From Microbacteriaceae bacterium (GTDB taxonomy: Bacteria > Actinomycetota > Actinomycetes > Actinomycetales > Microbacteriaceae), in assembly GCA_025463545.1 (NCBI GenBank), contig JAODAR010000008.1, forward strand, positions 1-64,000: a DNA stretch of 64,000 nucleotides, given 5' to 3'. The notes beneath the pieces are model-generated. The model saw nothing but the letters and a program-made list of their open reading frames with translations, had not been told where the DNA came from and did not search any database. Made by a program: the position numbers and the translations under genes. Shown in pieces: positions 7,545-49,735 of the stretch (position 1 is its first letter; each line of letters opens with the position of its first letter).

Positions 7545-7560
7545 GTCGGCGCATCCGCGT

Positions 7561-8511: not shown

Positions 8512-8540
8512 CCCCCGTGACCCCGGGCGGTGGGAAAGAA

Positions 8541-8767
8541 GTGGCGCCCTGCACGCTCCTAACCCGAATAGGAGCACACAGGGCACCGTCGCCGAGCCTA
8601 TCGGGCTGCAGAAGCGGTGCCTGCCCCCAGTTAGGGGTCATTGCCAGTCGTCCCCACGCGACGTAAGTTGAGCGCGTCGAATCTTTCTAACCCGAATAGA
8701 AGGAATTTCAACAACCCGAAGGCCCCCTGGGTCTCCCACGACGAGGGAGGCTCAGGGGGTCTTTACT
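8541..8767 (+). ncRNA. Candidate structured small RNA with repeated ACCCGAA-loop hairpins
   Basis: There is no open frame with family resemblance here. Hairpin 1 pairs GCTCCTA (8555-8561) with TAGGAGC (8569-8575) around loop ACCCGAA, inside an outer helix GCCCTG/CAGGGC (8546-8551, 8579-8584). Hairpin 2 pairs TCTTTCTA (8682-8689) with TAGAAGGA (8697-8704) around the same loop. Stem positions differ but stay paired (C-G becomes T-A, G-C becomes C-G), which is covariation within one sequence. A third ACCCGAA is at 8714-8720. A 17-bp terminator hairpin closes the region. Several G-U pairs that would be A-C mismatches on the other strand favour transcription from the plus strand. The family is not recognised, and the 5' end is a guess. 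Confidence 0.6.
8721..8767 (+). terminator. Rho-independent terminator of the candidate small RNA
   Basis: Arms 8721-8737 and 8745-8761 pair over 17 bp with three G-U pairs around the loop ACGACGA, followed by TTTACT. The G-U pairs hold only in a plus-strand transcript. The minus-strand VWA gene ends at 8824 and would have to be terminated elsewhere or by the weaker reverse hairpin. Confidence 0.8.
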
Positions 8768-8823
8768 CTGCCGGTGACCCGGTGGATGCGAGCGCAATCG
8801 CGGCGCCGCTCGCCAGGTCGCGG

Positions 8824-12268: not shown

Positions 12269-12316
12269 TCATCAAGGCTAACCCCGCGTCGGCATAATCG
12301 ACCCGGTCATGAGCAG

Positions 12317-34442: not shown

Positions 34443-35549
34443 ATGAACACTCCGCCTGCACGTCGGCGCGATGTGACGGTCGCGGATGTCGCACGGGAGG
34501 CGCGCGTGTCGAAGGCGACCGCAGCCAGGGCCCTGGGCGATTACGGGGCCGTGAGTGACGCTGTGCGGGACCGGGTACAGGCGGCAGCTGAGTCGTTGGG
34601 ATATCGCCCCAACGAACTGGCTCGGAGCATGAACACGGGAAAGTCGAACACCATCGGCGTCATCGTCGGGGACATCGAGAATCCGTATTTCGGCCTTGCC
34701 ATGCGCGGCATCTCCGATGTCGCCAAGGCGGAGGGCTTCGACGTCATCCTGGTGAACACCAGCGAAGACGTGGACGCGGAAATCGACGCTGTGCGGGTCC
34801 TCCTGGACAAGCGCGTGGACGGCTTGATCGTGGCTCCGGCGTCATCCGGAAGGACGGACCATCTGCATGACGTGTATGAGTCCGGCCGCCCCCTGGTGCT
34901 CCTGGACCGGCGGATAGAGGGTCTTGATGTCGACGTCGTCGAAGCCGACATGGCATCCGTGGCCTACCAGGCGACCCGGCACCTTACCGACGAAGGGCAT
35001 CGGCACATTGCTTTCATCTCCACGCTGGACGTGCAGGGCACTGCTTTCCATGAGGGGATCGATCTTCGCGTTTCCTCGGTGGCGGATCGGCTTGAGGGCG
35101 TGCTCGCCGCGCAGCGGGACGCCGGAGTCCCCGATCCGACTTCGCTGGTGCGATTCGATGCCAACGGCGCTGCAGGGATCAAGCAGGTCGTTCGCGAGTT
35201 GATGGCACTGCCGGATGCTCCGACGGCGATCATCGCTTCGGACAGCCTGATCGCCCTGAGCGTTCTGGGGACGGTGCGGGAGCTCGGCCTCTCGGTCCCC
35301 GCTGACGTATCGTTCATCATGTTCGACGACTTCGAATGGACGACGCTGACGTCTCCCCCGCTGACAGTGATCTCGCAGCCGATCTACGAGATGGGCGCCG
35401 CAGCCGCTCGCACACTCATTGGGCGGGTGCAGGGGCGGGCATTGCCTGACCTGGCCAAATTCACGGCCACGCTCGTTCAGCGCGGCTCGGTTGGCCGACC
35501 ACGTTCGATCGTTCTCACCGGGCCGATGGAGCCTCTCTCGGCGATCTGA
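34443..35549 (+). CDS. LacI-family transcriptional regulator
   Basis: A 368-residue repressor. The HTH is VTVADVAREARVSKATAARALGDYG, followed by a hinge (LGYRPNELARSMNTGKSNTIGVIVGDI) and a periplasmic-binding-like sensor ending VSFIMFDDFEWTTLTSPPLTVISQPIYEMGAAAA. ATG 34443 has AGAGGA just upstream. It is divergent from the binding-protein operon and probably controls it and itself. It is clearly paralogous to the LacI gene at 35477-36616, with which it shares a 73-base tail-to-tail overlap. The effector may be an Amadori compound or its phosphate. Confidence 0.92.
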   Translation: MNTPPARRRDVTVADVAREARVSKATAARALGDYGAVSDAVRDRVQAAAESLGYRPNELARSMNTGKSNTIGVIVGDIENPYFGLAMRGISDVAKAEGFDVILVNTSEDVDAEIDAVRVLLDKRVDGLIVAPASSGRTDHLHDVYESGRPLVLLDRRIEGLDVDVVEADMASVAYQATRHLTDEGHRHIAFISTLDVQGTAFHEGIDLRVSSVADRLEGVLAAQRDAGVPDPTSLVRFDANGAAGIKQVVRELMALPDAPTAIIASDSLIALSVLGTVRELGLSVPADVSFIMFDDFEWTTLTSPPLTVISQPIYEMGAAAARTLIGRVQGRALPDLAKFTATLVQRGSVGRPRSIVLTGPMEPLSAI

Positions 35550-36616
35550 GCCGGCAAGACGACGTGGCGAAATTCAGATTCGTCGCCCGCGATTCGCGAC
35601 AGCAGAAACTCCGCTGCCATTGCTCCCATCTCGTGCACCGGCTGAACGACCGTTGTGATTCCGACGCCGACGAAGCTCATCCAGTCCAGGTCGTCGAAGC
35701 ACACCATCGACAGGTCATCCGGCACAGTGAGGCCCAGAGACGAGATCGCGGCCATGGCGCCCGTCGACATCTTCCCGTCCCCAGTGAAAAGCGCTGTGGG
35801 CCGACGTGCCCTGTCGCGGTTCAGAAGGTCGAGAACTGCCGACTTCGCCGCCCCGACCGAATAGGCGCCCACCCGGACGACGAGGTCCATGTGCGGCTCC
35901 ACGCCTGACTCCTGGTGTGCCTCAAGGTAGCCCAGGAGGCGTTGCCAGCTCGGATAGAGAGACCGCGGATGGACCTTCCCGGCTATCACGGCCGTGACAA
36001 ATTGAGCCAGGTCTCCGAACCCGGAAGACTCCAGCTCCGCTACAAAGGCGATCCTGGTGTGCCCCGCAGAGAGCAACCGGCCCACGCAGTCCTTCGCAGC
36101 TTCCCTGTTGTCGACCGTGACGGAGTCGGCGGGCAGGCCCTCCACCACGCGGTCGATCTGCACCACCCGACATTGCGCCGCCAACGCCGCTCTCAGATGG
36201 CCTGAGCCCACGAGGTCGCAGGGTGAGACGATTAGCCCGTCGACCTGCTTCTCCAGGAGCAGCTGGACGGCTTCACGCTCGAGGTCAAGACTCTCATCAC
36301 TGTTCGTCAGGATGGCGCCAAAGCCTTCAGCGCGAGCGACGTCGGCGATACCGCGCATCGCGCTGGCGTAGAAGTCGCTACTGATGTCCCCCGCGACGAC
36401 GCCGATCGTCTGCGTTTTCCCGGTGATCAGGCCGCGCGCGAGCCGGTTGGGCCGATAACCCAGCGCCTCGGCGGCCTGGTTCACCCGGTCGCGGATCTCG
36501 TCGCTCGAGTACCCGTAGCGCCCCAACACGCGTCCGGCTGTCGCGGTGCTGACTCCCGCACGCTCCGCAACCTGGATGATCGTGACGCTGTCCGCTCGCT
36601 TCTTGGCCACGGTCAC
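35477..36616 (-). CDS. LacI-family transcriptional regulator (paralogue)
   Basis: A 379-residue repressor with HTH VTIIQVAERAGVSTATAGRVLGRYG, hinge LGYRPNRLARGLITGKTQTIGVVAGDI and sensor domain ending LSMVCFDDLDWMSFVGVGITTVVQPVHEMG. The same spacing and wording as the convergent neighbour indicates gene duplication. It has a GTG start at 36616 (a second GTG is at 36610). It is the last gene of the kinase-deglycase transcript, 21 bases after the SIS gene, so it may be autoregulated through the operator at 38571. The 3' end overlaps the other lacI by 73 bases. Confidence 0.92.
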   Translation of the reverse strand: MTVAKKRADSVTIIQVAERAGVSTATAGRVLGRYGYSSDEIRDRVNQAAEALGYRPNRLARGLITGKTQTIGVVAGDISSDFYASAMRGIADVARAEGFGAILTNSDESLDLEREAVQLLLEKQVDGLIVSPCDLVGSGHLRAALAAQCRVVQIDRVVEGLPADSVTVDNREAAKDCVGRLLSAGHTRIAFVAELESSGFGDLAQFVTAVIAGKVHPRSLYPSWQRLLGYLEAHQESGVEPHMDLVVRVGAYSVGAAKSAVLDLLNRDRARRPTALFTGDGKMSTGAMAAISSLGLTVPDDLSMVCFDDLDWMSFVGVGITTVVQPVHEMGAMAAEFLLSRIAGDESEFRHVVLPAQIAERGSIGPVRTIERGRPTEPR

Positions 36617-36637
36617 GACCCTATCTTGAGTGCACCC

Positions 36638-37657
36638 TTAGTATTCGACCTTCCACATGTAGCGGCGGCCCTCCAGGGTGTAGCCCCGGGCCGCCGCATA
36701 GTGAGCTGCGAGCCGTGCCATCCAGGCGTGGAACACGAGCGGAAGCACGTACGGTCGTTGGCGCTGGTCGATCCCCGGCAGCGGAACCTCGGTGCTGTCC
36801 ACGTAGAACGTTTCGCCGCCATACGTTGAGAGGAAGCGCTGCGCGCGCTCCCCCATCGGGCGCGTCTCATCCTCGCCGAGGAAGACGATCGTCTTGGTGT
36901 CCTTATCGATCACCTCGAACGGTCCCTGGAAGAATTCGTCGGCGTTGATCGTCGCCGCGTGCTTCCATTGCATCTCCTGCAGATAGCACATGGTGAAGGT
37001 GCTTGCCGCCCCGAACAGCGGTCCGGATGCCAGCACGTTCGTCACCGGGACGTCCTTCATCTCCCGTGCGATTTCTTCGGCACGCCGCTCGAGTGCGTTG
37101 AGGGCCGCGAGAAGGGCCGTCGGGAGAGCGTGGAGTGCCTCGAGCATCGGCGCGATGTCGAAATTCTTCCGCTTCAGGATGGCGAGCCCGACAAGCTGCA
37201 GCACGACTTGGGTTCCCTGCCCCGTCTCGGCGACAAAACTGGTTTCCAGGCTCCGGGCAAGCGGACCTTCTGCGTTCAGGGTCACGCCCACGACAGGCGC
37301 ACCCTGCGCCGCAGCCCATTCGGCGGCCCTGATGGTCTCAGGTGTGTTTCCGGTGCCGGAGAGAGCGACGACCAGGCTGTTCGGCCCCACGCTCGCGGGG
37401 GCACGGTAGTAGAACTCGTCGGAGTTGAGCGTCACCGCAGGAATGTGGGAATGCTTGTCGAGTACCCACTGGGCGGGCACCATCGCCAGGAACGAGCCGC
37501 CGGCGCCGACCAGGAAAACACGGTTGATGTCTCGATCGAGGCCACCGATGTGATCGTCGATCGCCGGCCACAGGCTGAGCGCCTGCTCCTGCGACGACAC
37601 AACGTTGTCGGGAATGGGTGCAACGGCGTGCGGGCCTACGTATGTTCCGTCAGTCAT
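36638..37657 (-). CDS. frlB: SIS-domain sugar-phosphate deglycase (FrlB-like)
   Basis: A 339-residue protein with two SIS domains, as in fructoselysine-6-phosphate deglycase FrlB and the isomerase half of GlmS. The first domain has VFLVGAGGSFLAMVPAQWVL and SLVVALSGTGNTPETIRAAEWA; the second has NVLASGPLFGAASTFTMCYLQEM and NADEFFQGPFEVID. FrlB splits fructosamine 6-phosphates to glucose 6-phosphate and the free amine. ATG 37657 has AGGAG 5 bases upstream. It lies directly downstream of a FrlD-like kinase, which supports the role; the exact amine is unknown. Confidence 0.82.
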   Translation of the reverse strand: MTDGTYVGPHAVAPIPDNVVSSQEQALSLWPAIDDHIGGLDRDINRVFLVGAGGSFLAMVPAQWVLDKHSHIPAVTLNSDEFYYRAPASVGPNSLVVALSGTGNTPETIRAAEWAAAQGAPVVGVTLNAEGPLARSLETSFVAETGQGTQVVLQLVGLAILKRKNFDIAPMLEALHALPTALLAALNALERRAEEIAREMKDVPVTNVLASGPLFGAASTFTMCYLQEMQWKHAATINADEFFQGPFEVIDKDTKTIVFLGEDETRPMGERAQRFLSTYGGETFYVDSTEVPLPGIDQRQRPYVLPLVFHAWMARLAAHYAAARGYTLEGRRYMWKVEY

Positions 37658-37705
37658 GGGTTCTCCTGGGTTGGGTTGGTGTGGTCACTGTGGTTGGGGG
37701 TCTGG

Positions 37706-38527
37706 TCATTGCGGAGCGGCGGACAGGGCAAGGTCTGCACCGTGGCCGAAAGCGCCGTGCCGGGTGCAGGTGTCCCCGGCACGCGCTGCCGCGGCCGCCA
37801 GGGCTTGCTCCGGCGGCTCACCCGATATCAGGCCGACGAGAACACGGGCAATGAAGGTGTCGCCCGCACCGAGGGTGTCGATGACCCGCTGCGGCACGGC
37901 GGGCACGGCATGCGAACCCTCAGCGTGCGCGAGAAGTGCACCGTGCGCGCCGCGCGTGACGAGTGCCCACGTCGCTCCCGCCGCCAGTGCAGCGGCTGCA
38001 GTTTCGGATGCTTGACTTTCGTTCATGTCGCCCCCTGAGAAAGACGCCAGGAAGCAGTACCGCGCGAGCAATGCGAGCCGGCCGGGATCTGACCTGGTGG
38101 AGAAGTCGTAGGAGAGCAGCGTTCTGTCCGCGATGTCGGCGAGACGATGGTCGAGGCCACTCGACTGGCTCACATGCGCTGCATCATGTTGGGCGATGAA
38201 GGCGAGGTCACTCTCGTCCAGTTCGAACCGGGAGACTCCGAGCGCAGAACCGAGGAAGATGCGATCGCCGTCTCGATGGCCGATCAGGCAATACGCGGTC
38301 TGGCCCTGCGTGTGGCGAAGCCGTCGTATGTCGACGCCCTCCTCCCGGAGCGAGCGCGAAATGAGCGCACCCGCCTCGTCGCGTCCTACGACGCCGATGT
38401 AACTTGCGCGGGCACCTGCCCGCCGAGCGAACACCGAGACGTTGAGCGAATTCCCGCCCGGGAACATCTGCGCGAGCGGCTCATAGCAGTCGACGACGTT
38501 GTCTCCGACGGCGACGATGCTTACCAT
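37706..38527 (-). CDS. frlD: PfkB-family kinase, fructoselysine 6-kinase-like (FrlD)
   Basis: A 273-residue ribokinase-fold kinase. The N terminus VAVGDNVVDCYEPLAQMFPGGNSLNVSVFARRAGA is close to FrlD (GDN.VD.Y.....F.GGN..NV). DTLGAGDTFIARVLVGLISG is the PfkB catalytic motif with the base Asp, and TCTRHGAFGHG matches the FrlD C terminus. ATG 38527 has GGAGG 5 bases upstream. It is the first gene of the kinase, deglycase, LacI transcript, with a LacI-type palindrome 44 bases upstream of the start. Confidence 0.82.
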   Translation of the reverse strand: MVSIVAVGDNVVDCYEPLAQMFPGGNSLNVSVFARRAGARASYIGVVGRDEAGALISRSLREEGVDIRRLRHTQGQTAYCLIGHRDGDRIFLGSALGVSRFELDESDLAFIAQHDAAHVSQSSGLDHRLADIADRTLLSYDFSTRSDPGRLALLARYCFLASFSGGDMNESQASETAAAALAAGATWALVTRGAHGALLAHAEGSHAVPAVPQRVIDTLGAGDTFIARVLVGLISGEPPEQALAAAAARAGDTCTRHGAFGHGADLALSAAPQ

Positions 38528-38570
38528 ACCGACCTCCGACTGACTTTCTGATGCGCGGGAGTCCATCGTA

Positions 38571-38584
38571 TGAGAACGTTCGCA
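38571..38584. promoter_or_regulatory. LacI-type operator upstream of the FrlD-like kinase
   Basis: TGAGAACGTTCGCA is a near-perfect 14-bp palindrome (one mismatched pair) with central CG. It sits upstream of the kinase-deglycase-lacI operon. Its half-site differs from the GAGACC type at 34363, so the two LacI paralogues probably have separate operators. Confidence 0.55.
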
Positions 38585-38669
38585 CACTCCGCAAGGGGTG
38601 AAGTCGAATTGCCGGGCCATCCAGTTGGAGCCTCTGGAACAGGCGCGACAGTTTGGTTACGATTCGACC

Positions 38670-39473
38670 GTGGGTTCACCTTCAGACGCACGCTGGGCCA
38701 CGCTCGGAACGGGCGTTCGGGTGCCGTACCTGTCGCAAGGCGATCCCCATGGCCCATGCGTCATCCTCTTGCACGCCTGGGGCGAGTCGATGGGAGCATT
38801 CGACCGGCTGCGTCCCCTGATGCCAGCATCCATCCGCACGTTCGCCTTCGATCAACGCGGCCAAGGCGATGCGGACAAACCGATGGCAGGTTTCGGTCTG
38901 CACGACCTGGCCGATGACACGGTGGCGTTTTTGGACGCAGTCGGTTTGGCATCGGCCGTGCTGGTCGGCTCATCGAGCGGCGGGTACGTCGCACAACAGG
39001 TTGCGCTCGACCACCCCGAGCGCGTTACGGGCCTCATTCTGGTTGGATCCCCACGCACTCTTCACCAACAATTTCATTTCGCCACCGACGTCGAAAAACT
39101 CGCCGACCCGATCGACCCGCAGTGGGTGCGAGATTCGTTGCGCTGGTTCCCCTCGACCGCCGACGTTCCGTCCTGGTTCATCGAAGACCGAGTACGCGAC
39201 GGAGTTCGGATGCCGGCTCGCGCGTGGATCGGTATCCTGGCCGGCATGATCGCCGCAGATCCGCCTACGGAGACGGGAAAGATTCGGGCACCGACGTTGA
39301 TCTTGTGGGGCGCGCGTGACGAGTTGCTGCCCCGCGGAGATCAGATTGCACTCGCCGCTGCCATACCCGGATCGCGGCTGATGATCCACGAAGAAGCCGC
39401 GCATCTGCTCCTCTGGGAACAACCCGCGTGGGTGGCGAGGGCTATCGCCGCGTTCGTGCTCGGAATGAAGTGA
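38670..39473 (+). CDS. Alpha/beta hydrolase
   Basis: A 267-residue hydrolase. The nucleophile elbow is VGSSSGGY (GxSxG), the acid is in WGARDELLP, and the catalytic His is in EEAAHLLLWEQP. VILLHAWGESMGAFDRLRPLMP is the oxyanion strand. I chose GTG 38670 since the fold begins there and TACGAT (38658-38663) ends 6 bases before it, which fits a leaderless transcript. A longer frame from 38598 exists. The substrate is unknown. Confidence 0.85.
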   Translation: MGSPSDARWATLGTGVRVPYLSQGDPHGPCVILLHAWGESMGAFDRLRPLMPASIRTFAFDQRGQGDADKPMAGFGLHDLADDTVAFLDAVGLASAVLVGSSSGGYVAQQVALDHPERVTGLILVGSPRTLHQQFHFATDVEKLADPIDPQWVRDSLRWFPSTADVPSWFIEDRVRDGVRMPARAWIGILAGMIAADPPTETGKIRAPTLILWGARDELLPRGDQIALAAAIPGSRLMIHEEAAHLLLWEQPAWVARAIAAFVLGMK

Positions 39474-39495
39474 AGTTCTCGGATCTATCCGTCGC

Positions 39496-39540
39496 TGTGC
39501 ACAGCGCACAGGCAGGGCTCGAATTTGTGCTCAACGCACA
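39496..39540. promoter_or_regulatory. Twin inverted-repeat operator TGTGC-N5-GCACA upstream of the permease/DUF917 operon
   Basis: Two copies of TGTGC-N5-GCACA, at 39496-39510 and 39526-39540, have exactly the same start-to-start spacing of 30 bp, about three helical turns, with different spacers (ACAGC, TCAAC). They lie in the 132-base gap before the NCS1 permease gene. The natural candidate protein is the PucR-type regulator at the end of the operon. Confidence 0.6.
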
Positions 39541-39605
39541 TCGCGTGTTTCTTCGGGGCTCACTAGCGTGGCACGCAACCTTTCCCCTCCTCTCGAAGGA
39601 CAGCC

Positions 39606-40934
39606 ATGGCATTCACAGCACACGCCGATGACTCCGCGCTCTCCCGCGTCTCCCCGGACGCCCGGAGGCATTGGTTCGGCATCGCCGTGCAGCGATTCGG
39701 TCAGGTCTCTGCGCTCTCGCAATTCCTCCTCGGCGCGACGCTCGGCTACAGCATGACGTTCGGCGAAGCCGCGCTCGCTCTCCTTCTCGGCTCCATCATC
39801 CTCGAAGTCATCATGTGCGTCGTCGGCATCATCGGGCAGAAAGAGGGCCTGAACACTGCGCTTCTCGCGCGATGGACCGGCTTCGGAGAGGTGGGCGCCT
39901 CGCTCGTCGGCCTCGCGATCGGCATCAGCCTCATCGGTTGGTTCGGCATCCAGAGCGCCATCTCAGCCCAGTCGCTCGACGCGCTCATGCCCGGCGTGAT
40001 GCCGGCTGCAATGTGGAGCCTCATCTTCGGACTCGCCGTCACGGCGATCGTCGTCTTCGGCTTCGCCGGTATGCAGTGGCTCGCCAACATCACCGTGCCG
40101 CTGTTCCTCATCCTTGTCGGGTGGTCGGTCATCAGCGAGCTCGGCAAGCACTCCATCGGCGCGCTGATCACCTCACCCGCCCCCGGGCCAACCATGAGCG
40201 TGTGGCAGGGCACGGGTATCGTCGCCGGCGGCCTCATCGTGGGCGCCATCATCACCGCCGATATGACCAGGTTCAACCGCTCCAGGGCCGACGTGATCAA
40301 GCAGACCGTCGTGGGTGTGTCCCTCGGCGAGTTCGTCATCGGGCTGGCGGGCGTGCTGCTCGCCCACGCCGCGGCATCCGGCAACATCGTGGCGATCGTG
40401 ACCTCGTCGATCGGATTTGTGGGCCTCATCATCGTCATCACAGGCACGCTGAAGATCAACGACTGGAACCTCTACTCCTCGACCCTCGGACTGGTCAACT
40501 TCATCTCGACGACGTTCAACAGGAATCTGCACCGGGTGACGACCACGATCGTGCTCGGCGTGGTGGGCTCGATCCTCGCCGCGGTCGGAATCCTGTCGCA
40601 GTTCACCGGCTTCCTCATCATCCTCGGTGTCGCCTTCCCGCCGATTGCGGGCATCATGGTCGCCGAGTACTTCGTCGTGAAACGCTGGCGGGGTGAACTG
40701 GACGCCACCCGCGAATCGGGCGAACTGCCCCCGACCGCGCCGCGCGTCGTGCCGGTCACGATCATCATCTGGGTGGTCTCGGCGGTCGTCGGCTACATCG
40801 TCACCTGGGGCATCCCTCCGGTGCTCTCCCTCGTGCTTTCGATGGTGCTGTACATCGTCGCCGGCAAGCTCGGCTGGGTGAAGGGCGTTGGCACCGCGCG
40901 CACGATTCAGGCGAAAGCGACCGTCTCGGTCTAA
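39606..40934 (+). CDS. NCS1-family permease (CodB/purine-cytosine permease-like)
   Basis: A 442-residue membrane protein with about 12 helices of the nucleobase:cation symporter-1 family. Typical segments are RFGQVSALSQFLLGATLGYSMTF, GIQSAISAQSLD, ITADMTRFNRSRADVIKQTVVGVSLGEF (the conserved D-x-x-R loop) and IAGIMVAEYFVVKR. NCS1 members import cytosine, allantoin, hydantoins, uracil or related rings. ATG 39606 follows GAAGGA. It opens the operon containing a hydantoinase-like ATPase and three DUF917 proteins, so the cargo is probably a hydantoin-like or other N-heterocycle. Confidence 0.9.
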   Translation: MAFTAHADDSALSRVSPDARRHWFGIAVQRFGQVSALSQFLLGATLGYSMTFGEAALALLLGSIILEVIMCVVGIIGQKEGLNTALLARWTGFGEVGASLVGLAIGISLIGWFGIQSAISAQSLDALMPGVMPAAMWSLIFGLAVTAIVVFGFAGMQWLANITVPLFLILVGWSVISELGKHSIGALITSPAPGPTMSVWQGTGIVAGGLIVGAIITADMTRFNRSRADVIKQTVVGVSLGEFVIGLAGVLLAHAAASGNIVAIVTSSIGFVGLIIVITGTLKINDWNLYSSTLGLVNFISTTFNRNLHRVTTTIVLGVVGSILAAVGILSQFTGFLIILGVAFPPIAGIMVAEYFVVKRWRGELDATRESGELPPTAPRVVPVTIIIWVVSAVVGYIVTWGIPPVLSLVLSMVLYIVAGKLGWVKGVGTARTIQAKATVSV

Positions 40935-41031
40935 CCATGCCGACGGCTTGACCTGGCCTGCGGCCGGCGAGTGCGGCAAACGATTGCGGCCTGTGGCGTC
41001 AGCCGGCCAGTTACCTAGGAAAGCGAGAAAC

Positions 41032-42585
41032 ATGCATATCGGCATCGATGTCGGCGGCACGAACACCGACGCAGTGCTCATGGACGGCAGGCACACCCTC
41101 GCGGGTGTGAAGCACTCGACGACACCGGATGTCACGGAGGGCATCGTCGAGGCGATCGAGGCCCTTCGCGCCGGGCACCACTTCGAGGGCGCGGACATCA
41201 CCGCTGTGATGATCGGTACGACTCACTTCATCAACGCACTCGTCGAGGCGCGGCGCCTCGCCCCGACAGCCGCGCTCCGTCTCGGTCTCCCGGCAACGAA
41301 GGCCCTGCCGCCCCTGGTGGACTGGCCGCTCCCGCTGAAGGAAGCGATCAGCGCCCGCAGCTACCTCGCCCACGGCGGCTACGAGTTCGACGGACGCCCT
41401 ATCTCGCCGCTCGACCCCGAGGAGCTGAAGGCGCACGCCGCCGACATGAAAGCTCACGGCATCCGTTCCGTGGCGATCTCCTGTGTCTTCAGTCCGGTCA
41501 ACCACAACCTCGAAGTGGAAGCCGGCGAGATCATCGCCGCCGAACTCGGCGATGGGGTGGCAATCTCGCTCTCCTACGAGATCGGGCGCATCGGCCTGCT
41601 CGAGCGCGAGAACGCGACAATCATCAACGCGGCCTTGCGGGAGCTCGCGTCGGAGATCGTGGACGGCCTCACCGCGGCGGTGCGGGCCCAGGGCATCCAG
41701 GCGCCGATCTTCCTCAGCCAGAACGACGGCACCCTCATGGACGAGGACTACGTTCGCCGCTACCCCGTGGCCACCTTCGCGTCCGGACCAACCAACTCGA
41801 TGCGCGGTGCGGCCCTGACGAGCGGTCTTGACAACTGCGCCGTCGTCGACCTCGGCGGCACGACGGCTGACATCGGCTTGCTCGTCAACGGCTTCCCTCG
41901 CGAGACCGCCAACGAGGTGAAGGTGGCGGGCGTCCGCACGAACTTCCGGATGCCCGATGTGCTGTCACTCGGCATCGGCGGCGGGAGCATCGTCGACACC
42001 GAGACCGGCGAGGTCGGCCCGGCATCCGTCGGGTATCGTCTCACCACCGAAGCTCTCGTCTTCGGGGGGTCGACGCTCACGGCCACCGACATTGCCGTCG
42101 CCGCCGGTCGAGCCGAGATCGGCGACCCGGAGCTGGTCAAACACCTCGACCCCGCCTTCGTGACGAAGGTGCTGGACCGCATCGCCGAGCGCGTAGCCGA
42201 GGCCGTCGACCGCATGCGCACCTCGCCGGAACCGATTCCGGTCGTAGCGGTCGGCGGCGGCTCGATCCTGCTGCCCGACGAGCTCCCGCTGTTCGGCACG
42301 GTGCACCGGCCGGAGAACTACGCGGTCGCCAACGCCATCGGCGCATCAATCGCCCAGGTCGGCGGCGAGATCGACAAGGTCTACGCCATCGAACCCGGTC
42401 GTCGCGAGGAAGCCCTCGCCGAGGTGCGGGCGGAGGCCGTCGACAAGGCGATCGCCGCAGGGGCCTCACCGCAATCCGTCACCATCGTCGACTTCGATGA
42501 GGTGCCGATCCCCTACCTGCCCGGCAACGCCACGCGTATCCGTGTGAAAGCGGTCGGCGACCTGGACATGGGAGCGCGGGCGTGA
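41032..42585 (+). CDS. Hydantoinase/oxoprolinase-family ATPase subunit (HyuA-like)
   Basis: A 517-residue protein of the hydantoinase A/oxoprolinase family (ASKHA fold). The phosphate-1 loop is GIDVGGTNTDAVLMDG, GTTHFINALVEARRL is conserved, and VVDLGGTTADIGLLVNGFPRE is the phosphate-2 loop; LGIGGGSIVDTETGEVG follows. These proteins activate a cyclic amide with ATP. No HyuB-type partner is present; instead the stop overlaps the first of three DUF917 genes by GTGA. In many genomes a domain of this type is fused to DUF917, so here they probably form a complex. ATG 41032 has an AGGAAAG site. Confidence 0.9.
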   Translation: MHIGIDVGGTNTDAVLMDGRHTLAGVKHSTTPDVTEGIVEAIEALRAGHHFEGADITAVMIGTTHFINALVEARRLAPTAALRLGLPATKALPPLVDWPLPLKEAISARSYLAHGGYEFDGRPISPLDPEELKAHAADMKAHGIRSVAISCVFSPVNHNLEVEAGEIIAAELGDGVAISLSYEIGRIGLLERENATIINAALRELASEIVDGLTAAVRAQGIQAPIFLSQNDGTLMDEDYVRRYPVATFASGPTNSMRGAALTSGLDNCAVVDLGGTTADIGLLVNGFPRETANEVKVAGVRTNFRMPDVLSLGIGGGSIVDTETGEVGPASVGYRLTTEALVFGGSTLTATDIAVAAGRAEIGDPELVKHLDPAFVTKVLDRIAERVAEAVDRMRTSPEPIPVVAVGGGSILLPDELPLFGTVHRPENYAVANAIGASIAQVGGEIDKVYAIEPGRREEALAEVRAEAVDKAIAAGASPQSVTIVDFDEVPIPYLPGNATRIRVKAVGDLDMGARA

Positions 42586-43670
42586 GCTGGACCATCACCG
42601 AGGACCTGATCCCCGAGCTCGCTCGCGGCGCGGCCGTGCTGGGCACCGGCGGCGGCGGCGATCCCTACATCGGCGCGCTGCTCGCCCGGCAGGCCCTCCG
42701 TGAGCGTGGACCCGTGACCGTGGTCGGACTCGGCGAGGTTCCCGACGACGCGCTCGTGCTGACCGTCGCAATGATGGGCGCCCCCACTGTCATGGTGGAG
42801 AAGTTGCCCAGCCTCGAGGAGGTCATCGCCCCGGCACGTGCCCTGAGCACCTACCTCGGCCGCTCCGTCACGCACATCGCGTGCGCCGAGATCGGCGGGG
42901 TCAACTCGACGATCCCCATCGCGGCGGCTTCCGCGCTCGGCCTGCCGCTCATCGACGCCGATGGCATGGGGCGCGCGTTCCCCGAATTACAGATGGTGCT
43001 GCCGACCCTGTACGGCGTGACGGCTTCGCCGCTGGCGTTCAGCGACGAGAAGGGCAACATCGGTGTGCTGCACACCGTCGACAACCACTGGACCGAACGC
43101 ATAGCCCGAGTGGCGTGCGTCGAGATGGGCTGCTCCATCATGATCTCCGGTTTCTCGATGGACGGCGCCAAGGCGCGTGAGGCCCTCGTTGCGGGCTCGC
43201 TGCAGCATTCCCTTTCGATCGGCCGCGGCATCGCCGACGCCCGGGCGGAGAATGCCGACCCGGTCGCACGCGTCGTCGAACTGCTCGGTGGGCGCGAGGT
43301 GTTCTCCGGGAAGGTCGTCGACGTGGAGCGCGGCACGACTGCGGGCTTCGCGCGAGGACGCGCCAGGATCGACGGCGAGAGTTCCACGCTCACGCTCTCG
43401 TTCCAGAATGAGCACCTCATCGCCCAGTCCGACGGCACCACGCTGGTCACCACCCCCGACCTCATCATCGTTCTTGACCACGATTCCGGCGAGCCGATCA
43501 CGACCGAGGCTCTTCGCTACGGCCAGCGAGTGCGGGTCGTCAGCGCCCCGAGCGATCCTCGCTGGCACAGCACCGAAGCACTCGCGATGGTGGGCCCCGG
43601 TTACTTCGGCTACGACATGCCGTCACACCGTTTCGATGGGACCGTGGAGCACGGCGAGGCCGCGGCATGA
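42582..43670 (+). CDS. DUF917 (S-Me-THD-family) protein, copy 1
   Basis: A 362-residue DUF917 protein. LGTGGGGDPYIG opens the family, followed by MMGAPTVMVEKLP, EIGGVNSTIPI and DADGMGRAFPELQM, then SFQNEHLIAQ and TPDLIIVLDHDSGEPITTEALRYGQRV in the C-terminal half. From memory, Pfam now names this family after S-methyl-thiohydantoin desulfurase; most members are uncharacterised. It has a GTG start overlapping the upstream ATPase gene and a 4-base ATGA overlap with copy 2. Its charged motifs are all intact. Confidence 0.88.
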   Translation: MSWTITEDLIPELARGAAVLGTGGGGDPYIGALLARQALRERGPVTVVGLGEVPDDALVLTVAMMGAPTVMVEKLPSLEEVIAPARALSTYLGRSVTHIACAEIGGVNSTIPIAAASALGLPLIDADGMGRAFPELQMVLPTLYGVTASPLAFSDEKGNIGVLHTVDNHWTERIARVACVEMGCSIMISGFSMDGAKAREALVAGSLQHSLSIGRGIADARAENADPVARVVELLGGREVFSGKVVDVERGTTAGFARGRARIDGESSTLTLSFQNEHLIAQSDGTTLVTTPDLIIVLDHDSGEPITTEALRYGQRVRVVSAPSDPRWHSTEALAMVGPGYFGYDMPSHRFDGTVEHGEAAA

Positions 43671-44764
43671 GCTGGGAGCTGACGGGCGCTGATCTGGCCG
43701 ATCTCGCCCGCGGCGCGACGCTGCTGGGCACCGGCGGCGGCGGCGACCCCTACATCGGCAAGATGCTCGTCGAGCGTGTTCTCGGCGACCGGTCGATCAC
43801 GGTGCTCGATCCGGACGAAATCGACGACGCCATGTTCGTCATCCCCACAGCCCAAATGGGCGCGCCGACGGTGATGATCGAGAAGATCCCGGCCGGCACG
43901 GAGCCCACGCTCGCCCTCCGCACCCTCGAAGAGCATCTCGGCCGCACGGCCGACGCGACCATGCCGATCGAATGCGGCGGCATCAACTCGATGATCCCGC
44001 TCGTTGTGGCTGCCGAGACGGGCCTTCCTGTGGTCGACGCAGACGGCATGGGCCGCGCGTTCCCGGAGCTCTCGATGGAGACCTTCGCGGTCTACGGGGT
44101 GCACGGCTCGCCCCTCGCCCTCGCCGGTGAGCGGGGCGAGCGCGTGATCATCGACACGGGCGACGACGATCGGCAGATGGAGTGGCTCGCCCGCGGCATC
44201 ACCATCCGCCTGGGCGGCGTCGGGCACATCGCGGAGTACGCGATGACCGGCGCTGAAGTCAAGCGCACGGCGGTCCCCCGCACGATCTCCATGGCGCTTG
44301 CCCTGGGCCGCGCCATCCGCGAGGCCCGTGAACAGAAGCGCTCACCGTTCGAGGCGATCGCCGAGACACTCTCGACCACCCTCTACTCGCACGTGCGCGA
44401 GCTGTTCGTCGGCAAGGTCACCGACGTCGAACGCCGCACAACCGAGGGCTTCGCAAAAGGCCGGGCGACCATCTCCGCTTTGGATCCGGCGAGCGCCGAC
44501 GCCCTCGAGATCTCCTTCCAGAACGAGAACCTCATCGCCCGTCGCGGCGACGAGGTCGTTGCTATCGTGCCCGACCTGATCTGCGTGGTCGACATCGAGT
44601 CGGGCGAGCCGATCACGACCGAGGGCCTCCGGTACGGGCAGCGCGTGCGAGTGCTCGGCATCTCGACGCCGGACATGATGCGAACCCCCGAGGCGCTGCG
44701 CGCGTTCGGACCTGCGGCGTTCGGATTGGACGAGCCGTTCGTGCCCGTGGAATCCCGCCCCTAG
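43667..44764 (+). CDS. DUF917 (S-Me-THD-family) protein, copy 2
   Basis: A 365-residue paralogue of copy 1. It starts almost identically (MSWELTGADLADLARGATLLGTGGGGDPYIG) and keeps QMGAPTVMIEKIP, ECGGINSMIPL, DADGMGRAFPELSM, SFQNENLIAR and ESGEPITTEGLRYGQRV. The middle portion differs, which suggests a separate substrate or a heteromeric partner role. It overlaps copy 1 by ATGA; copy 3 starts 9 bases after its stop. Confidence 0.88.
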   Translation: MSWELTGADLADLARGATLLGTGGGGDPYIGKMLVERVLGDRSITVLDPDEIDDAMFVIPTAQMGAPTVMIEKIPAGTEPTLALRTLEEHLGRTADATMPIECGGINSMIPLVVAAETGLPVVDADGMGRAFPELSMETFAVYGVHGSPLALAGERGERVIIDTGDDDRQMEWLARGITIRLGGVGHIAEYAMTGAEVKRTAVPRTISMALALGRAIREAREQKRSPFEAIAETLSTTLYSHVRELFVGKVTDVERRTTEGFAKGRATISALDPASADALEISFQNENLIARRGDEVVAIVPDLICVVDIESGEPITTEGLRYGQRVRVLGISTPDMMRTPEALRAFGPAAFGLDEPFVPVESRP

Positions 44765-44773
44765 GCTGACTGC

Positions 44774-45811
44774 ATGGCACGAACCGTCGAGCAGGCGCAG
44801 CTACCGGCGCTCGCCCGGGGATTCTCGCTCCTCGGCTCCGGCGGCGGCGGAACGACCACGATGTTGGAGCTGATGCTCGACGTCGCCCCGGTCTGGCCGG
44901 TCACCCTGCACTCCGCTGACGAGCTCGACCCGTCGACCCCGTGCCTGGCCGTCGCTTTCGTGGGCTCCACCTTCCTCCTCACCGAGCGAATTTCCGGTGA
45001 CTCCCCCTTCGAGGAACTGGTCCGAGCGGCGGAACGCTGGACCGGACGGCGGGCGCCAGCCATCTGCTCGATGGAGGCTGCCGGGCTCAACGGCCTGGCT
45101 CCGTTCACCTTGACCGGGGACCGCAGCTTCGTCGACGCGGACTTCATGGGGCGGGCTCTCCCCCGTCTTGACCAGCTGTCCCTCCTCGTCGACCGCGTGC
45201 CCGGCACCGTGGCCGTGTGTGGTTCGGGCGCGGGCGGAGTCGTTCTCGTCGACACGGACCGCGCGGAGGACGTCGAACGGATTGTGCGCGGCGCCGTAGT
45301 GCAGGCCGGCGGCGTGAGTGAGGTGGTCGTGGCCGGTTTCACGGTCGGCGACCTGCTCGACCATGCGGTGCTCGGCAGTTACGAGCGGGCGCTCGACCTC
45401 GGCTGCGCGTTCGAGGAAGCTGCCGACGGGCCGCTTGTCGCCCTGGCCGGTCGGCTCGGGGCACGGATGCTCGGCCACGGTCGTGTCACGGCGGTCCAGA
45501 CTTCCCAGCAGGACCCCCAGACTTCGGCGATAGAGATCGCCGGCGATGCCGGTGAGGTTTTCCGTGTGATCGCCCGCTCGGAGTCGCTCGCGTTCATGCG
45601 CGACGGCCGCGTGGAGGCTGCGACGCCGGAGATCATCATCACCCTTGACTCCATCTCCCGCGAGGTGCTGCAGGTCGATGGCCTGACGTTCGCGCGACAT
45701 GTCGCCGTCCTGGCGCTGCCCGCGCCGGACTGGTGGACGTCCTCGCCCGACCGCCTCCGCCACGTCCTGCCTTCGGCCTACGATCTCATCGGCTTGGAGG
45801 TTCCCGCATGA
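44774..45811 (+). CDS. DUF917 (S-Me-THD-family) protein, divergent copy 3
   Basis: A 345-residue, much more divergent paralogue. The opening motif reads LGSGGGGTTTM instead of LGTGGGGDPY, GGxNSxIP becomes AAGLNGLAP, and DADGMGRAFPEL becomes DADFMGRALPRL. TPEIIITLDSISREVLQVDGLTFARHV replaces the ESGEPITTEGLRYGQRV segment. The fold seems kept, but residues constant in copies 1 and 2 are lost, so it may be a structural or regulatory subunit. ATG 44774 follows copy 2 by 9 bases; its stop overlaps the PucR gene by ATGA. Confidence 0.8.
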   Translation: MARTVEQAQLPALARGFSLLGSGGGGTTTMLELMLDVAPVWPVTLHSADELDPSTPCLAVAFVGSTFLLTERISGDSPFEELVRAAERWTGRRAPAICSMEAAGLNGLAPFTLTGDRSFVDADFMGRALPRLDQLSLLVDRVPGTVAVCGSGAGGVVLVDTDRAEDVERIVRGAVVQAGGVSEVVVAGFTVGDLLDHAVLGSYERALDLGCAFEEAADGPLVALAGRLGARMLGHGRVTAVQTSQQDPQTSAIEIAGDAGEVFRVIARSESLAFMRDGRVEAATPEIIITLDSISREVLQVDGLTFARHVAVLALPAPDWWTSSPDRLRHVLPSAYDLIGLEVPA

Positions 45812-47328
45812 CCGAGCTGGATCTGCCGTCGTTGCTCGCGCACCCAGCGAACGGCGGCCTGCGTGCCATCGCCGGGGGCGATGGTATCTCGTGGCGCGCC
45901 GTCATCATCGACTCCGCTGAGTCCCGCCTCCTGTCCGACACCGACGGTGACGCCGCAGGCATATTGGCGATCCTCACCTCCGATCCCCCGCCCACTTCGT
46001 GGCAGCAGGATGCGCTCATCCGCCGGGTACGCGATCGCGGCTATCGGGCCCTCGCGCTTCCGAACGCCGGCAGCTTCGGCAGCGGGACGCGCGCGCTGGC
46101 CGAGCGCCTGGGTCTGACATTGCTGCACGTCGACGACCCGATGATCCTTGCGAAGGCCTGCTGGCAGCTCCTGGAAGGCCGGGACGCGCTCACCCTCGGC
46201 TACGTGCGCAAAGTGGCGCAGTCGATCGAGTACCACGCCACCGGTTTGCCAGACCTGCTGCGCCATCTGTCGGCGAGCGTTGGCCACGGTATTGCCCTGA
46301 TCGACGCCGAGGGCACACTGCTCGAAGCCGGTGGCACTTTGCCTGCCAGCGTGCGGGGCGCGATCGACTTCGCGCCATGGCTCGACATCGTCACCCTCGA
46401 AGCGGGCGCCGCGGCATCCGTTCGGGTCGACAGCCCCAGCCGGGCCGGTCTCCGCCTCGCCTTCTTCGGCATGGGGTTGAGCGCCACCCAACTCAGCGCG
46501 CTGGGGGTGGCCGCCGAGGTCGCGATGCCGGCCGTCGCGGCGCGCATCCTCATCGACGAGGTCAACGACGTGAACGACGCCGCAGTGTCGTCCGGCTTGC
46601 TGCGCGATTTCCTGGAGCGGCGTGGCACCCATGACGCCGAACTCGAGCAGCGGATGCTCGACCGTGGCTGGCGTACCACCGGCTACCATCTCGGCTTCCG
46701 CATCATCGGCCGGACGCGCGTTGACACGTTCGAGCTGCTGCGTTTCATCACCCGGGAGTTTGCAGAGCTCCCCGCCGGCTCGCACGCGGCAACGAGCGGC
46801 CGCGGCGTGACGGGCTGGCTCACGTTCGCGGAGCCGCCCACGCCCCGGCAGGTCGAGGACCAGGTGGCGATGATTCGCGCGCTGCACACATCCGCCCGCC
46901 GCGCCTTCAACGTCGCCACGGGCGTCGGCACGGTCGAGAGCGGATCCGCCGGCCTGGTCACTTCGATCAACGGCGCCGCCGATGCCGCGCGCATCGCGGT
47001 CAACCGTTCGGCCACGGGCTGGATCGTGCGCATTGACGCCCTCGGCCTCGAACAGCTGTTGCTTTCCTGGACCGAGAACGACGTCTTCGTTCCCGCAGCG
47101 GAAGCGCTACTGGCGCCCCTGGCGGCCCACGGTCCGGATCTTCTCTCGACCCTGTCGGCCTACCTGGACCATGAATCAGGCATAGCGGCCACCGCCGTCG
47201 CCCTCAATCTGCATCGCAATACGGTCGCCGCTCGCATGGCTCGCGCCCAGAGCATCCTCGGCCTCGACCTCAGCGACCCGGAGATCCGGCTGGCGGTGCA
47301 CCTCGCATGTCGGGCAGTGAGATCCTGA
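45808..47328 (+). CDS. PucR-family transcriptional regulator
   Basis: A 506-residue regulator. The N-terminal half resembles the PucR sensor domain (LPSLLAHPANGGLRAIAGGDGISWRAVIIDSAESRL..., with RDRGYRALALPNAGS), a GGDEF-like/CdaR middle region follows, and the C-terminal HTH_30 helix is ESGIAATAVALNLHRNTVAARMARAQSILGLDL. PucR proteins control purine, hydantoin or amino acid catabolism. Its start overlaps the third DUF917 gene by ATGA, so it is co-expressed with the pathway and probably acts at the twin operator at 39496-39540. Confidence 0.88.
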   Translation: MTELDLPSLLAHPANGGLRAIAGGDGISWRAVIIDSAESRLLSDTDGDAAGILAILTSDPPPTSWQQDALIRRVRDRGYRALALPNAGSFGSGTRALAERLGLTLLHVDDPMILAKACWQLLEGRDALTLGYVRKVAQSIEYHATGLPDLLRHLSASVGHGIALIDAEGTLLEAGGTLPASVRGAIDFAPWLDIVTLEAGAAASVRVDSPSRAGLRLAFFGMGLSATQLSALGVAAEVAMPAVAARILIDEVNDVNDAAVSSGLLRDFLERRGTHDAELEQRMLDRGWRTTGYHLGFRIIGRTRVDTFELLRFITREFAELPAGSHAATSGRGVTGWLTFAEPPTPRQVEDQVAMIRALHTSARRAFNVATGVGTVESGSAGLVTSINGAADAARIAVNRSATGWIVRIDALGLEQLLLSWTENDVFVPAAEALLAPLAAHGPDLLSTLSAYLDHESGIAATAVALNLHRNTVAARMARAQSILGLDLSDPEIRLAVHLACRAVRS

Positions 47329-47845
47329 CGTGCACCCCGTGCAGATTCGAGTTGCTCGCCAGCTGCAGCTGTTCCCAAAGTCATCTGTGTTGAACATGAG
47401 ACAATAGAAGCTGCCAAACTCGCGAGTTCGTGCACTTCCGCACATGCGGCACTGTCTTTCTCGCGCGCTCACCAGCGTTGAACTCGTCATCACGAGTGAC
47501 GCTGTGGGACGACCGTCTGAAACGTGATTACCTCGGTACATCCGGCCATCGATGTCGAGTGTGGCGGCGCCATTTTTTGCCTTCCCGCACACCGGCAACA
47601 GGCTGTCTCTCATCGGCAGCCGGGTCAAGCACAGCCAAGGGCGAACTACTGTACGGCCAGGTTGTTGAAGACCTGACGGCGGACCTGAGCGGGGAGCTGG
47701 TTCGTGAATCCGCGATTTTGTCCGCGTAACGGGACGGCCGTTCAGCAGCGGCCTCCACTTCCACACCCGGGCAACCGCCGCAACCCCCTGAGGAATTGCA
47801 CCCGCCGGAGTAACGTCTAGAGCAATTCTCGAAGGAGCGAGCTCG
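47329..47845. other. Gene-free spacer
   Basis: The 517 bases between the PucR gene and the kinase gene hold short open frames on both strands, but none shows family resemblance, a good ribosome site and codon use like its neighbours. I see no terminator with a T-run. The last 30 bases carry the GAAGGAG ribosome site of the kinase. Confidence 0.5.
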
Positions 47846-49735
47846 ATGAGTACTCCGACCACTCTCGTCGCCGACCGCTACCGACTGGTCAAGCTGCTCG
47901 GCTCGGGCGGGATGGGGATTGTCTGGCAGGCGTGGGACGAACGCCTGCAACGACCGGTCGCACTTAAAATGCTGCGCTCCCAGCCGGAACTTACCGATCA
48001 AGAGCGGGAGATCACTACAAATCGGGCGATGCGTGAGGCGCGCATCACCGCTGGCCTGCACCATCGTCACGCGGTCACAGTGTTCGACGTCGTGGAGCAC
48101 GAGGGCCAGCCGTGCCTGGTGATGGAGCTCATCGAGTCGACGCCGCTATCGGTCCTGCTGCGCGAACACGGCACGCTCACACCGCGGGAAACGGCTCGAA
48201 TTGGGGCGCAGGTGAGCTCTGCACTGGCCGCTGCTCACAGAATGCGGATCGTGCACAGGGACGTGAAGCCGGGCAACATCCTCATCGCGGAGGACGGGTC
48301 CGCCATGATCAGCGACTTCGGAATCTCGCACGCACTCGGAGACGCGACCATCACAGCGACGGGCATGATCCACGGCACTCCCGCCTACCTCGCGCCAGAG
48401 GTAGCCCGTGGGCAGGAGTCGAGTTTCGCGTCGGACGTCTTCTCTCTGGGGTCGACGCTGTACGCCATGCTCGAGGGCACCCCGCCGTTCGGCGCCGAGA
48501 ACAATGCGATCGCGCTGCTGCACAAGGTTGCGCGCGGCGACTACCCTGCCCCGCAGCACGCGGCAGAGCTGACGCCACTCCTGCGGGACATGCTGGCGGC
48601 CGATCCCAAGCGCCGGCCCGACATGAGAACGATCGCAACACGGCTGTCTGCAATCTACGAGGGCACGAGGTCGGGCGCTGGGGCCGCCGCAGCATCCGAG
48701 TCACCGACGGTTCCGCTCGGTCTCCCGGCCGCCGGCCCTGGCATCGAGCGTTCGGAAGCGGGGACAGCGGAGGCGGAACAGGTCGGAGTCACCGCTGAGA
48801 CCGAGCCGCTCGATGAGGCCACTTCCGAGACCGAGCGGCTGCATGACACCACTTCGGATACCGAGCGCCTCCTAGCCGCCGCGCCCGAAGAGACTGAACT
48901 GCAGCAAGGTCCGACAGCGGATATTGTCCGCCTGCACGAGACCCGGAGATACGAAGCACCCACGCTGGAAGCACCGACGGTGAAAGCGGAAGCACCCACG
49001 GTGGACGCCCCAACCGCCGAGACCGAGCGCCTGGTCGGCGCTGCAGCGTCCCCGGCGGCTGCAGCCAGCGTGCCGCGCCCGCCGCTTCCTCCCCCGGCAG
49101 CCTCGACACAGCCAGGCTCCCAGCCGCGCCGCCGACGCGCCGGTGCCCTGATCGGCATCCTGCTGATCGCGGGCATCCTCGTACTCGGCATTGTGGTGCT
49201 GTTCAATTCCCTTCGCCAGGATGCGGGCAACGCGGGTGGCCCGAGCATTCGAGTGTCTCCGAGCACGAATCAGGCGCCGACCGCCGCCGGGACGGCGACC
49301 GCTTCTGAGACGACGGCTGCCGGGACGCAGCCGCCCGAGACGCAGGCCCCCGCCACCCCGCCGGCGCCGGTCAGCCCCAACCCGTCTCCCCCGCCCGCTG
49401 CGGGGAAGACCCAGGAGCAACGACTCGTCGACACGATCACGACGTACTACTCGCTCATGCCGGGCAACCTCGACGGCGCCTGGCCGATGATGACCGCCGA
49501 CTACCAAGAGAACCACGTCGGCGGCCGAGATGCTTACGAATCCTTCTGGGGTGACGTGGAAAAGGTGGCGATCTCCGACGTCAGCGCATCCCCGCCCGAT
49601 GCGGCCCAGGCGACACTGACCTATTACTTCACCGACGGGCGCGCCGTGCAGGAGGTGACGGCGTACCGTTTCGCGGAGGAGGGAGGCACCGCCAAGATCG
49701 CCGAGACCACCGTGCTCAGCAGCAGGGAACTGTGA
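47846..49735 (+). CDS. Membrane Ser/Thr protein kinase (PknB-like) with extracytoplasmic domain
   Basis: A 629-residue Hanks-type kinase. The N-terminal kinase domain spans about 1-270: glycine loop LLGSGGMGIVWQAWD, ATP Lys in VALKML, catalytic HRDVKPGN near residue 136, DFG, and activation segment GMIHGTPAYLAPEV. A Thr/Glu-rich juxtamembrane linker has irregular repeats of TERL and EAPT. One membrane helix (ALIGILLIAGILVLGIVVLF) is near 432-452. Outside lie a Thr/Pro-rich stalk and a compact C-terminal domain (about 521-629) that looks NTF2-like, rather than PASTA repeats. It probably senses an envelope signal. ATG 47846 has GAAGGAG upstream. Confidence 0.9.
   Translation: MSTPTTLVADRYRLVKLLGSGGMGIVWQAWDERLQRPVALKMLRSQPELTDQEREITTNRAMREARITAGLHHRHAVTVFDVVEHEGQPCLVMELIESTPLSVLLREHGTLTPRETARIGAQVSSALAAAHRMRIVHRDVKPGNILIAEDGSAMISDFGISHALGDATITATGMIHGTPAYLAPEVARGQESSFASDVFSLGSTLYAMLEGTPPFGAENNAIALLHKVARGDYPAPQHAAELTPLLRDMLAADPKRRPDMRTIATRLSAIYEGTRSGAGAAAASESPTVPLGLPAAGPGIERSEAGTAEAEQVGVTAETEPLDEATSETERLHDTTSDTERLLAAAPEETELQQGPTADIVRLHETRRYEAPTLEAPTVKAEAPTVDAPTAETERLVGAAASPAAAASVPRPPLPPPAASTQPGSQPRRRRAGALIGILLIAGILVLGIVVLFNSLRQDAGNAGGPSIRVSPSTNQAPTAAGTATASETTAAGTQPPETQAPATPPAPVSPNPSPPPAAGKTQEQRLVDTITTYYSLMPGNLDGAWPMMTADYQENHVGGRDAYESFWGDVEKVAISDVSASPPDAAQATLTYYFTDGRAVQEVTAYRFAEEGGTAKIAETTVLSSREL

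Follow-up and report, generated by a model that had tools for sequence, protein, structure and literature searches.

The 64,000-nucleotide stretch of Microbacteriaceae DNA analysed here (contig JAODAR010000008.1; hereafter, the window) carries on its plus strand an operon of six genes encoding, in order, an NCS1-type permease, a short HyuA-type ATPase, three DUF917 proteins (designated A, B and C), and a PucR-type transcription regulator (Table 1). Our analysis revealed that A and B keep a set of conserved family positions that C has lost, that C is linked to PucR rather than to HyuA, and that a tandem operator-like site is conserved upstream of the permease gene. The gene coordinates agree with an earlier reading of the same DNA (hereafter, the original prediction), which had listed the six genes in this order and place. 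That reading had also described the genes as tightly packed, and this is true where HyuA and A overlap by GTGA, A and B by ATGA, and C and PucR by the four bases ATGA, as well as for the 9-base gap between B and C; however, the permease and HyuA genes are not tightly joined here, being 97 bases apart (median of 43 over 78 core loci).

A profile of C retrieved 186 relatives that were confirmed in species genomes, and we examined the best 80 of these 186. All six genes occur in the same order in 77 of the 80 loci, the three incomplete loci (L018, L031 and L075) being cut by contig ends. One of the 77, L055, was counted although its A gene is frame-shifted; an apparent A-B fusion gene at 7881-9995 of this locus was rejected, as the frame change lies inside A and the genome is metagenome-assembled, and L055 was kept out of the profiles but included among the 80 loci. 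The A-B overlap is 4 bases in 77/79 loci and the C-PucR overlap 4 bases in 69/79, and HyuA-to-A spacing is +1 (40/79) or -4 (33/79). The flanks are not conserved: the most widespread flank clusters occur in at most 11/78 loci, and the first flanking open reading frame (ORF) lies on either strand about equally often (upstream, 40 versus 35; downstream, 33 versus 38). Flank ORFs were chosen by length, some are probably spurious, and Pfam gave no match for 5 of the 10 cluster representatives. The six-gene arrangement is far beyond chance, and with its order and overlaps kept while the flanks vary, it can be regarded as one functional unit with its own regulator, as had been claimed. In evenly drawn genome samples, both of which include the centre genome G001, PF06032 is present in 12/246 Actinomycetota and 32/199 Microbacteriaceae genomes, and the A-B-C triplet in 8 of the 199.

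Table 1. Genes of the operon and associated sequence features in the window.
Feature	Position	Strand	Pfam domains
NCS1-type permease (CodB-like)	39606-40934	+	PF02133
Short HyuA-type ATPase, 517 amino acids (aa)	ATG 41032, end 42585	+	PF05378 + PF01968
DUF917-A, probable catalytic partner of HyuA	42582-43670	+	PF06032 + PF20906
DUF917-B, probable catalytic partner of HyuA	43667-44764	+	PF06032 + PF20906
DUF917-C, degenerate copy and proposed sensor partner for PucR	44774-45811	+	
PucR-type transcription regulator, 506 aa	ATG 45808, end 47328	+	PF13556 + PF17853
Operator-like site 1, TGTGC-N5-GCACA, perfect	39496-39510	.	
Operator-like site 2, TGTGC-N5-GCACA, perfect, 30 base pairs (bp) after site 1	39526-39540	.	
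Possible -10 element, TAGCGT	39564-39569	+	
Possible terminator hairpin, then T run	47561-47573	+	

DUF917-C is degenerate and linked to PucR

All three window proteins belong to the DUF917 / S-Me-THD-like superfamily. Against cut-offs of 27 bits, the scores for PF06032 and PF20906 are 192.8 and 212 bits (A), 191.3 and 226 bits (B), and 99.1 and 91 bits (C), respectively. The family is large (7865 of 8000 scored candidates matched A), and the search for related solved chains gave a single one, the structural-genomics entry 2o3i, which the predicted model of C still matches.

The copies were compared at 11 test positions (A numbering: D27, P28, K244, D247, R250, Q275, N276, D293, Y313, R316 and G338). 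A keeps all 11 in 79/79 rows and B in 78/79, the remaining row carrying Q275H. Window C keeps 0/11, and it retains all nine other polar positions (E73, E103, N108, D125, D127, R131, E172, R176 and E277). A tree of 97 rows places A, B and C each on one side of a 100/100 branch, with long branches for C.

Loss of the test positions goes together with PucR. Among 116 DUF917 rows from 71 selected loci, 26 have a PucR helix-turn-helix (HTH) domain at the distance of a directly following gene on the same strand, and in none of these 26 are more than 6 of the 11 positions kept; 12 of them come from loci outside the alignment from which the positions were picked. Of the other 90 rows, 78 keep at least 9 positions, 5 keep 7 or 8, and 7, from a distant family, keep 2 or 3. 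The distant family (L186-L191 and L195; ~60-126 bits) has neither a short HyuA nor PucR directly downstream; degeneracy alone therefore does not imply PucR coupling.

Since the 80 loci had been selected by C, the linkage was also approached from the other side by surveying all 57 PF06032 places in the 199-genome Microbacteriaceae sample, which removes the choice of loci. Rows were counted as intact at 9 or more positions in the 116-row set and at 8 or more in this survey, the lower threshold being used because 12 of the 57 rows, all of one type, have exactly 8. All 15 PucR-coupled rows keep fewer than 8 positions, and the 36 rows with at least 8 (24 of them with at least 9) include no PucR-coupled one; six degenerate rows have neither PucR downstream nor a short HyuA. 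As a side observation, a common Microbacteriaceae type (L116 and L197-L207) combines a single DUF917 keeping 8/11 positions with a divergent PucR-type gene, and a short HyuA lies within the distance limit in 9 of its 12 rows.

In a tree of 75 of the 116 rows, built after removal of the 7 distant rows and of a further 34, mostly near-copies, from 18 loci, the 20 PucR-coupled rows fall on one side of a single branch (100/97, recovered in all 200 bootstrap trees). Core C rows belong to this group, and window C groups with core C in the 97-row tree, in which the forks joining C to L081, L106 and L107 are not well supported. The 15/15 degenerate survey rows together with this one 100/97 branch indicate that the C-PucR linkage is old and has been kept. 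With a four-base overlap and none of the test positions, window C is thus a degenerate DUF917 coupled to PucR, and the view of the three copies as equal subunits is not supported. Over nine close pairs, the ratio of nonsynonymous to synonymous substitution rates (dN/dS) is 0.02-0.19 for C and 0.01-0.22 for PucR, with C above A in eight of the nine; by this measure, C is under purifying selection and not decaying.

The regulator itself is of PucR type, as it carries a C-terminal HTH_30 domain (PF13556, 69.4 bits versus a cut-off of 27; residues 445-503 of 506) as well as GGDEF_2 (PF17853, 32.8 bits). At E up to 1e-4 no further Pfam family was found in it, including PF07905, the usual N-terminal domain of PucR-family regulators. 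It thus resembles such regulators in its HTH_30 and GGDEF_2 domains, but differs in having a degenerate DUF917 encoded directly upstream in an overlapping gene and in showing no PF07905 at that threshold.

Gene sets of relatives and the tandem operator-like site

The pairing of a short HyuA with DUF917 is widespread, and the enzyme genes occur in other combinations in relatives. Only permease, HyuA and B are present in L111, L112 and L174, only permease, HyuA and A in L177, and A and B with HyuA in L179; none of the fetched stretches of these loci contains C or PucR. A accompanies a C-like gene and PucR in L110, L172, L173 and L175, and also, with a core-type HyuA, in L109, while L176 has A, B, C-like and PucR. 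In L117, an overlapping pair of a degenerate C-like gene and PucR is transcribed away from permease, HyuA and B. As A and B can each be the sole DUF917 beside HyuA, one HyuA to three DUF917s is not a fixed stoichiometry. The L109 operon (genome G359, 7309-12510) is of core type without B, and its genome has two PF06032 matches; B seems to have been lost there.

HyuA with two DUF917s is found on plasmids of the alphaproteobacteria Rhizobium, Aureimonas, Aminobacter and Qingshengfaniella, and Haloferax mediterranei pHME132 (L082, 9004-13832) encodes one HyuA with an A-type, a B-type and a third intact DUF917 (10/11 positions), together with an ATP-binding cassette (ABC) importer. These plasmid operons share with the window a short HyuA beside several DUF917s, but they have ABC importers and other regulators, no permease or PucR, and no degenerate C-type copy. 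The subunit make-up, put forward as unknown from any described system, is accordingly less unusual than thought. On a Streptomycetaceae plasmid (L081, 8926-14216), OsmC and a Cds1-like gene lie between an intact DUF917 and a degenerate one that adjoins a PucR-type gene; the Cds1-like cysteine desulfhydrase scores 572.1 bits versus a cut-off of 600, and a sulfur substrate is conceivable for this variant.

The ATP-motif residues are present in window HyuA, and D6, D13, D273, the triplet G275-G276-T277 and D280 are invariant in 44/44 short HyuAs partnered with DUF917. For ten PucR-coupled loci that belong neither to the core nor to its close kin, we also examined the gene upstream. In eight of them (L106, L107, L108, L118, L192, L193, L194 and L196), it is an ORF of 426-485 aa that matches the HyuA profile at 25 to 57 bits (nine proteins searched); of the other two, L081 has the Cds1-like gene upstream and L117 no such ORF. 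More specifically, D13, D273 and G275-G276-T277 are kept in none of the eight pseudo-HyuAs and D6 only in L108, while R192 is kept in all eight and E193 and D232 in seven. Of the three examined with Pfam, L118 has a recognisable HyuA domain (31.8 versus a cut-off of 25.2 bits), whereas L108 and L192 show none at E 1e-6. With queries from L106, a canonical HyuA was found in all eight stretches and HyuB in five. We read pseudo-HyuA, pseudo-DUF917 and PucR as a putative sensor set beside a cyclic-amide enzyme.

The two perfect copies of TGTGC-N5-GCACA upstream of the permease gene are the only perfect ones in the 64 kb. The half-site pair occurs in 30/78 core upstream regions, versus at most 3 for any pair in shuffles. 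Allowing up to 2 mismatches in 10 and 250 bp, at least one copy is found at 76 of 78 permease starts (window plus 77 loci; 11.0 in shuffles, maximum 16 in 30 shuffles) and at least two at 55 (0.9 in shuffles, maximum 3), and 48 neighbouring pairs are spaced exactly 30 bp apart. A partly conserved element, ta.c.tgg (65/78 loci used for the consensus), follows the pair at a fixed distance; in the window it corresponds to the possible -10 element TAGCGT. Beyond the core, the one-mismatch site between the divergent C-like-PucR pair and the permease in L117, and the lack of a site in L111, L112, L174 and L177, which have neither C nor PucR, both favour a link between site and PucR. Against a simple link, L109, L175 and L176, which have C-like and PucR, carry only two-mismatch copies. 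PucR may bind the tandem site at 39496-39540. As to other expression signals, a sigma-70 consensus scan found no promoter, and the terminator-like sites in 39400-47900 (5 versus 2.7 in shuffles) are weak evidence for the hairpin at 47561-47573.

Upstream of the operon lie, on the minus strand at 35477-38620, genes for a LacI regulator, a SIS-domain protein and a PfkB kinase. The latter two proteins are closest to fructoselysine 6-phosphate deglycase and fructoselysine 6-kinase, yet score under the NCBIfam cut-offs; catabolism of Amadori products is possible for these genes. They were set aside from the operon because the flanks are not conserved. An alpha/beta hydrolase gene (38598-39473, plus strand) immediately precedes the operon, and the nearest PcaD-type models are far under cut-off for its product.

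Permease, HyuA and candidate chemistry

The permease is an NCS1 member (PF02133, 70.8 bits versus a cut-off of 23.5) whose structure matches are CodB (7qoa, 87.0 bits) and then Mhp1 (33.8 bits). It falls short of the CodB model NF008241 (159.8 versus 326 bits), and Leu109 stands in place of the cytosine-binding Gln105 of CodB. Trp112 and Gly209 (each in 79/79 core permeases) and Gln116 (78/79) correspond to Mhp1 Trp117, Gly219 and Gln121, and Asn288 aligns with Mhp1 Asn318 only given a one-residue indel; according to the Mhp1 paper, Gln121 and Asn318 are conserved in the family and hence not specific. Leu210 (75/79) occupies the position of the second stacking aromatic. Together, these residues speak against cytosine and for an oxo-N-heterocycle of some kind. 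Because Lys283-Ile284 replaces the sodium-site Thr-Thr of CodB in 79/79 core permeases, sodium coupling is doubtful, and the permease may not be sodium-coupled.

Window HyuA has both expected domains (PF05378, 127.3 bits; PF01968, 116.8 bits), and among PDB chains it is closest to an N-methylhydantoinase and a 5-oxoprolinase. The domains and ATP motifs of a HyuA-HyuB lactam hydrolase are thus present, but a phmmer search with the L106 query (E up to 1e-3) found no HyuB among window ORFs of at least 80 aa, in keeping with the original prediction of a stand-alone HyuA with separate DUF917 partners and no HyuB. CapAB, 5-oxoprolinase and N-methylhydantoinase likewise contain a HyuA-type ATPase with N-terminal and middle Pfam domains, whereas window HyuA is short and has DUF917 in place of HyuB. 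For caprolactamase, PMC8453981 proposes lactim activation in CapA and hydrolysis at the metal site of CapB, a site for which no counterpart is shown in DUF917. By analogy, HyuA would activate a ring amide that A and/or B would hydrolyse, and we regard the combination of HyuA with A and/or B as a probable ATP-dependent hydrolase of cyclic amides. The predicted ATP-dependent ring opening is in that sense probably right, which cannot be said of the desulfurising function or of three equal DUF917 subunits.

Thiohydantoin desulfurases act on the ring carbon bearing the sulfur. The thiohydantoin and S-methyl thiohydantoin desulfurases (NF058529 and NF058532) share the PF06032 + PF20906 family with the window proteins, but all three of these score far under the equivalog cut-offs of 450 bits for the S-methyl thiohydantoin model and 440 bits for the thiohydantoin model (in this order, 127.6 and 80.3 [A], 87.1 and 70.8 [B], 32.1 and 30.3 [C]). 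At 30 to 128 bits, desulfurisation by the window operon is unsupported; a hydantoin-like substrate is still plausible. Hypothetically, the carbon of a phosphorylated lactim would be activated similarly to the substrate carbon of a desulfurase, which might explain why the DUF917 fold can serve either alongside an ATPase or without one.

Hydantoins, dihydropyrimidines and cyclic dipeptides remain candidate substrates. We consider it a real but rather doubtful possibility that the substrate is not a hydantoin but a 2,5-diketopiperazine (cyclic dipeptide) or a related cyclic amide derived from amino acids. In other phyla, the enzyme pair adjoins ABC importers, which in L184 and L185 are named as dipeptide/oligopeptide/nickel type, Asp/Glu racemases (L087, L088, L182 and L183), and an isoaspartyl peptidase with a dipeptidase (L181). 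Clusters of cyclodipeptide oxidases are enriched for DUF917 (PMC11055893), and diketopiperazine cleavage is documented for strains of Leifsonia, Microbacterium, Rhizobium and Bacillus, the responsible enzymes being described as unclear (PMC3852281). However, the window operon encodes an NCS1 permease and lacks a peptidase, the neighbours of relatives need not share its substrate, and hydantoins and dihydrouracil are also cleaved, through different enzymes, by some of these strains.

Proposed mechanism and alternative explanations

We give an even chance to the interpretation that this catabolic operon combines an enzyme part (HyuA with A and/or B) and a regulator part in which C serves PucR as a dead-enzyme sensor. 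The permease would import a small oxo-N-heterocycle, and HyuA would use ATP to activate its ring amide; the probable route is phosphorylation of the lactim oxygen, the step that has been proposed for caprolactamase and oxoprolinase. Intact A and/or B would then take the place of HyuB and hydrolyse the activated carbon, thereby opening the ring. The dead paralogue C, kept as a sensor, would bind the substrate or dock on HyuA and pass the signal to PucR, which would bind the tandem site and activate the operon.

Several points weigh against this interpretation: (i) the 11 test positions were chosen in an alignment for being ones at which core C differs, and core C rows are no test of degeneracy, a test that rows from loci outside that alignment do provide; (ii) PucR coupling represents one lineage, the counts are not independent, and long branches (L108, L117 and L176 among the PucR-coupled rows) may help to hold the group together; (iii) the site was counted in the same core upstream regions in which the motif was discovered, L179 (A and B, with neither C nor PucR in the fetched stretch) carries a one-mismatch site, and L081, L110, L172 and L173 have C-like and PucR but no site; (iv) the contact between C and PucR is something that we infer; and (v) no relation of DUF917 to HyuB or CapB was seen, and the hydrolysis step is drawn by analogy.

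More generally, and with confidence just short of even, HyuA and DUF917 may have been reused as a dead-enzyme sensor for PucR-family activators, either with both halves dead, as in the eight pseudo-HyuA loci, or with only C dead, perhaps docking on live HyuA, so that the enzyme would report its substrate to its own switch.

An unlikely alternative is that C is a prozyme, i.e., a dead paralogue that activates or stabilises a HyuA-A-B complex, its adjacency to PucR being only a matter of gene order. C does look dead while being under purifying selection, and trypanosomes have dead paralogues that are retained beside, and activate, a live enzyme (PMC5201418). Unlike that case, however, C is linked to a transcription regulator and both enzyme halves look dead in eight loci; moreover, HyuA occurs with A and/or B in five loci without C, the C-like-PucR pair of L117 is transcribed away from the enzyme genes, and the eight loci have a degenerate DUF917 and PucR with no short live HyuA nearby. 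Still less probable is the original model of HyuA with three DUF917 subunits, each required to open a hydantoin or thiohydantoin ring: the six genes are indeed coupled and co-conserved, and all three copies keep the nine polar positions, but C lacks all 11 other conserved positions and falls within the PucR-coupled group, the number of DUF917s in relatives varies from one to three, and the desulfurase cut-offs are not reached.

The open-licence literature yielded no paper that deals with this operon or with a DUF917-PucR sensor, and within it the pairing of C with PucR, the tandem site, and the HyuA-DUF917-PucR sets that look fully dead are new. Setting the probable catalytic copies A and B apart from the PucR-linked C guides which proteins to combine, and the tandem site is a predicted operator of the operon usable in a reporter assay. 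Its genes are also candidates for cleaving hydantoins or cyclic dipeptides in an ATP-dependent manner, and if the sensor reading is true, an enzyme pair would have been reused as a ligand detector for transcription.

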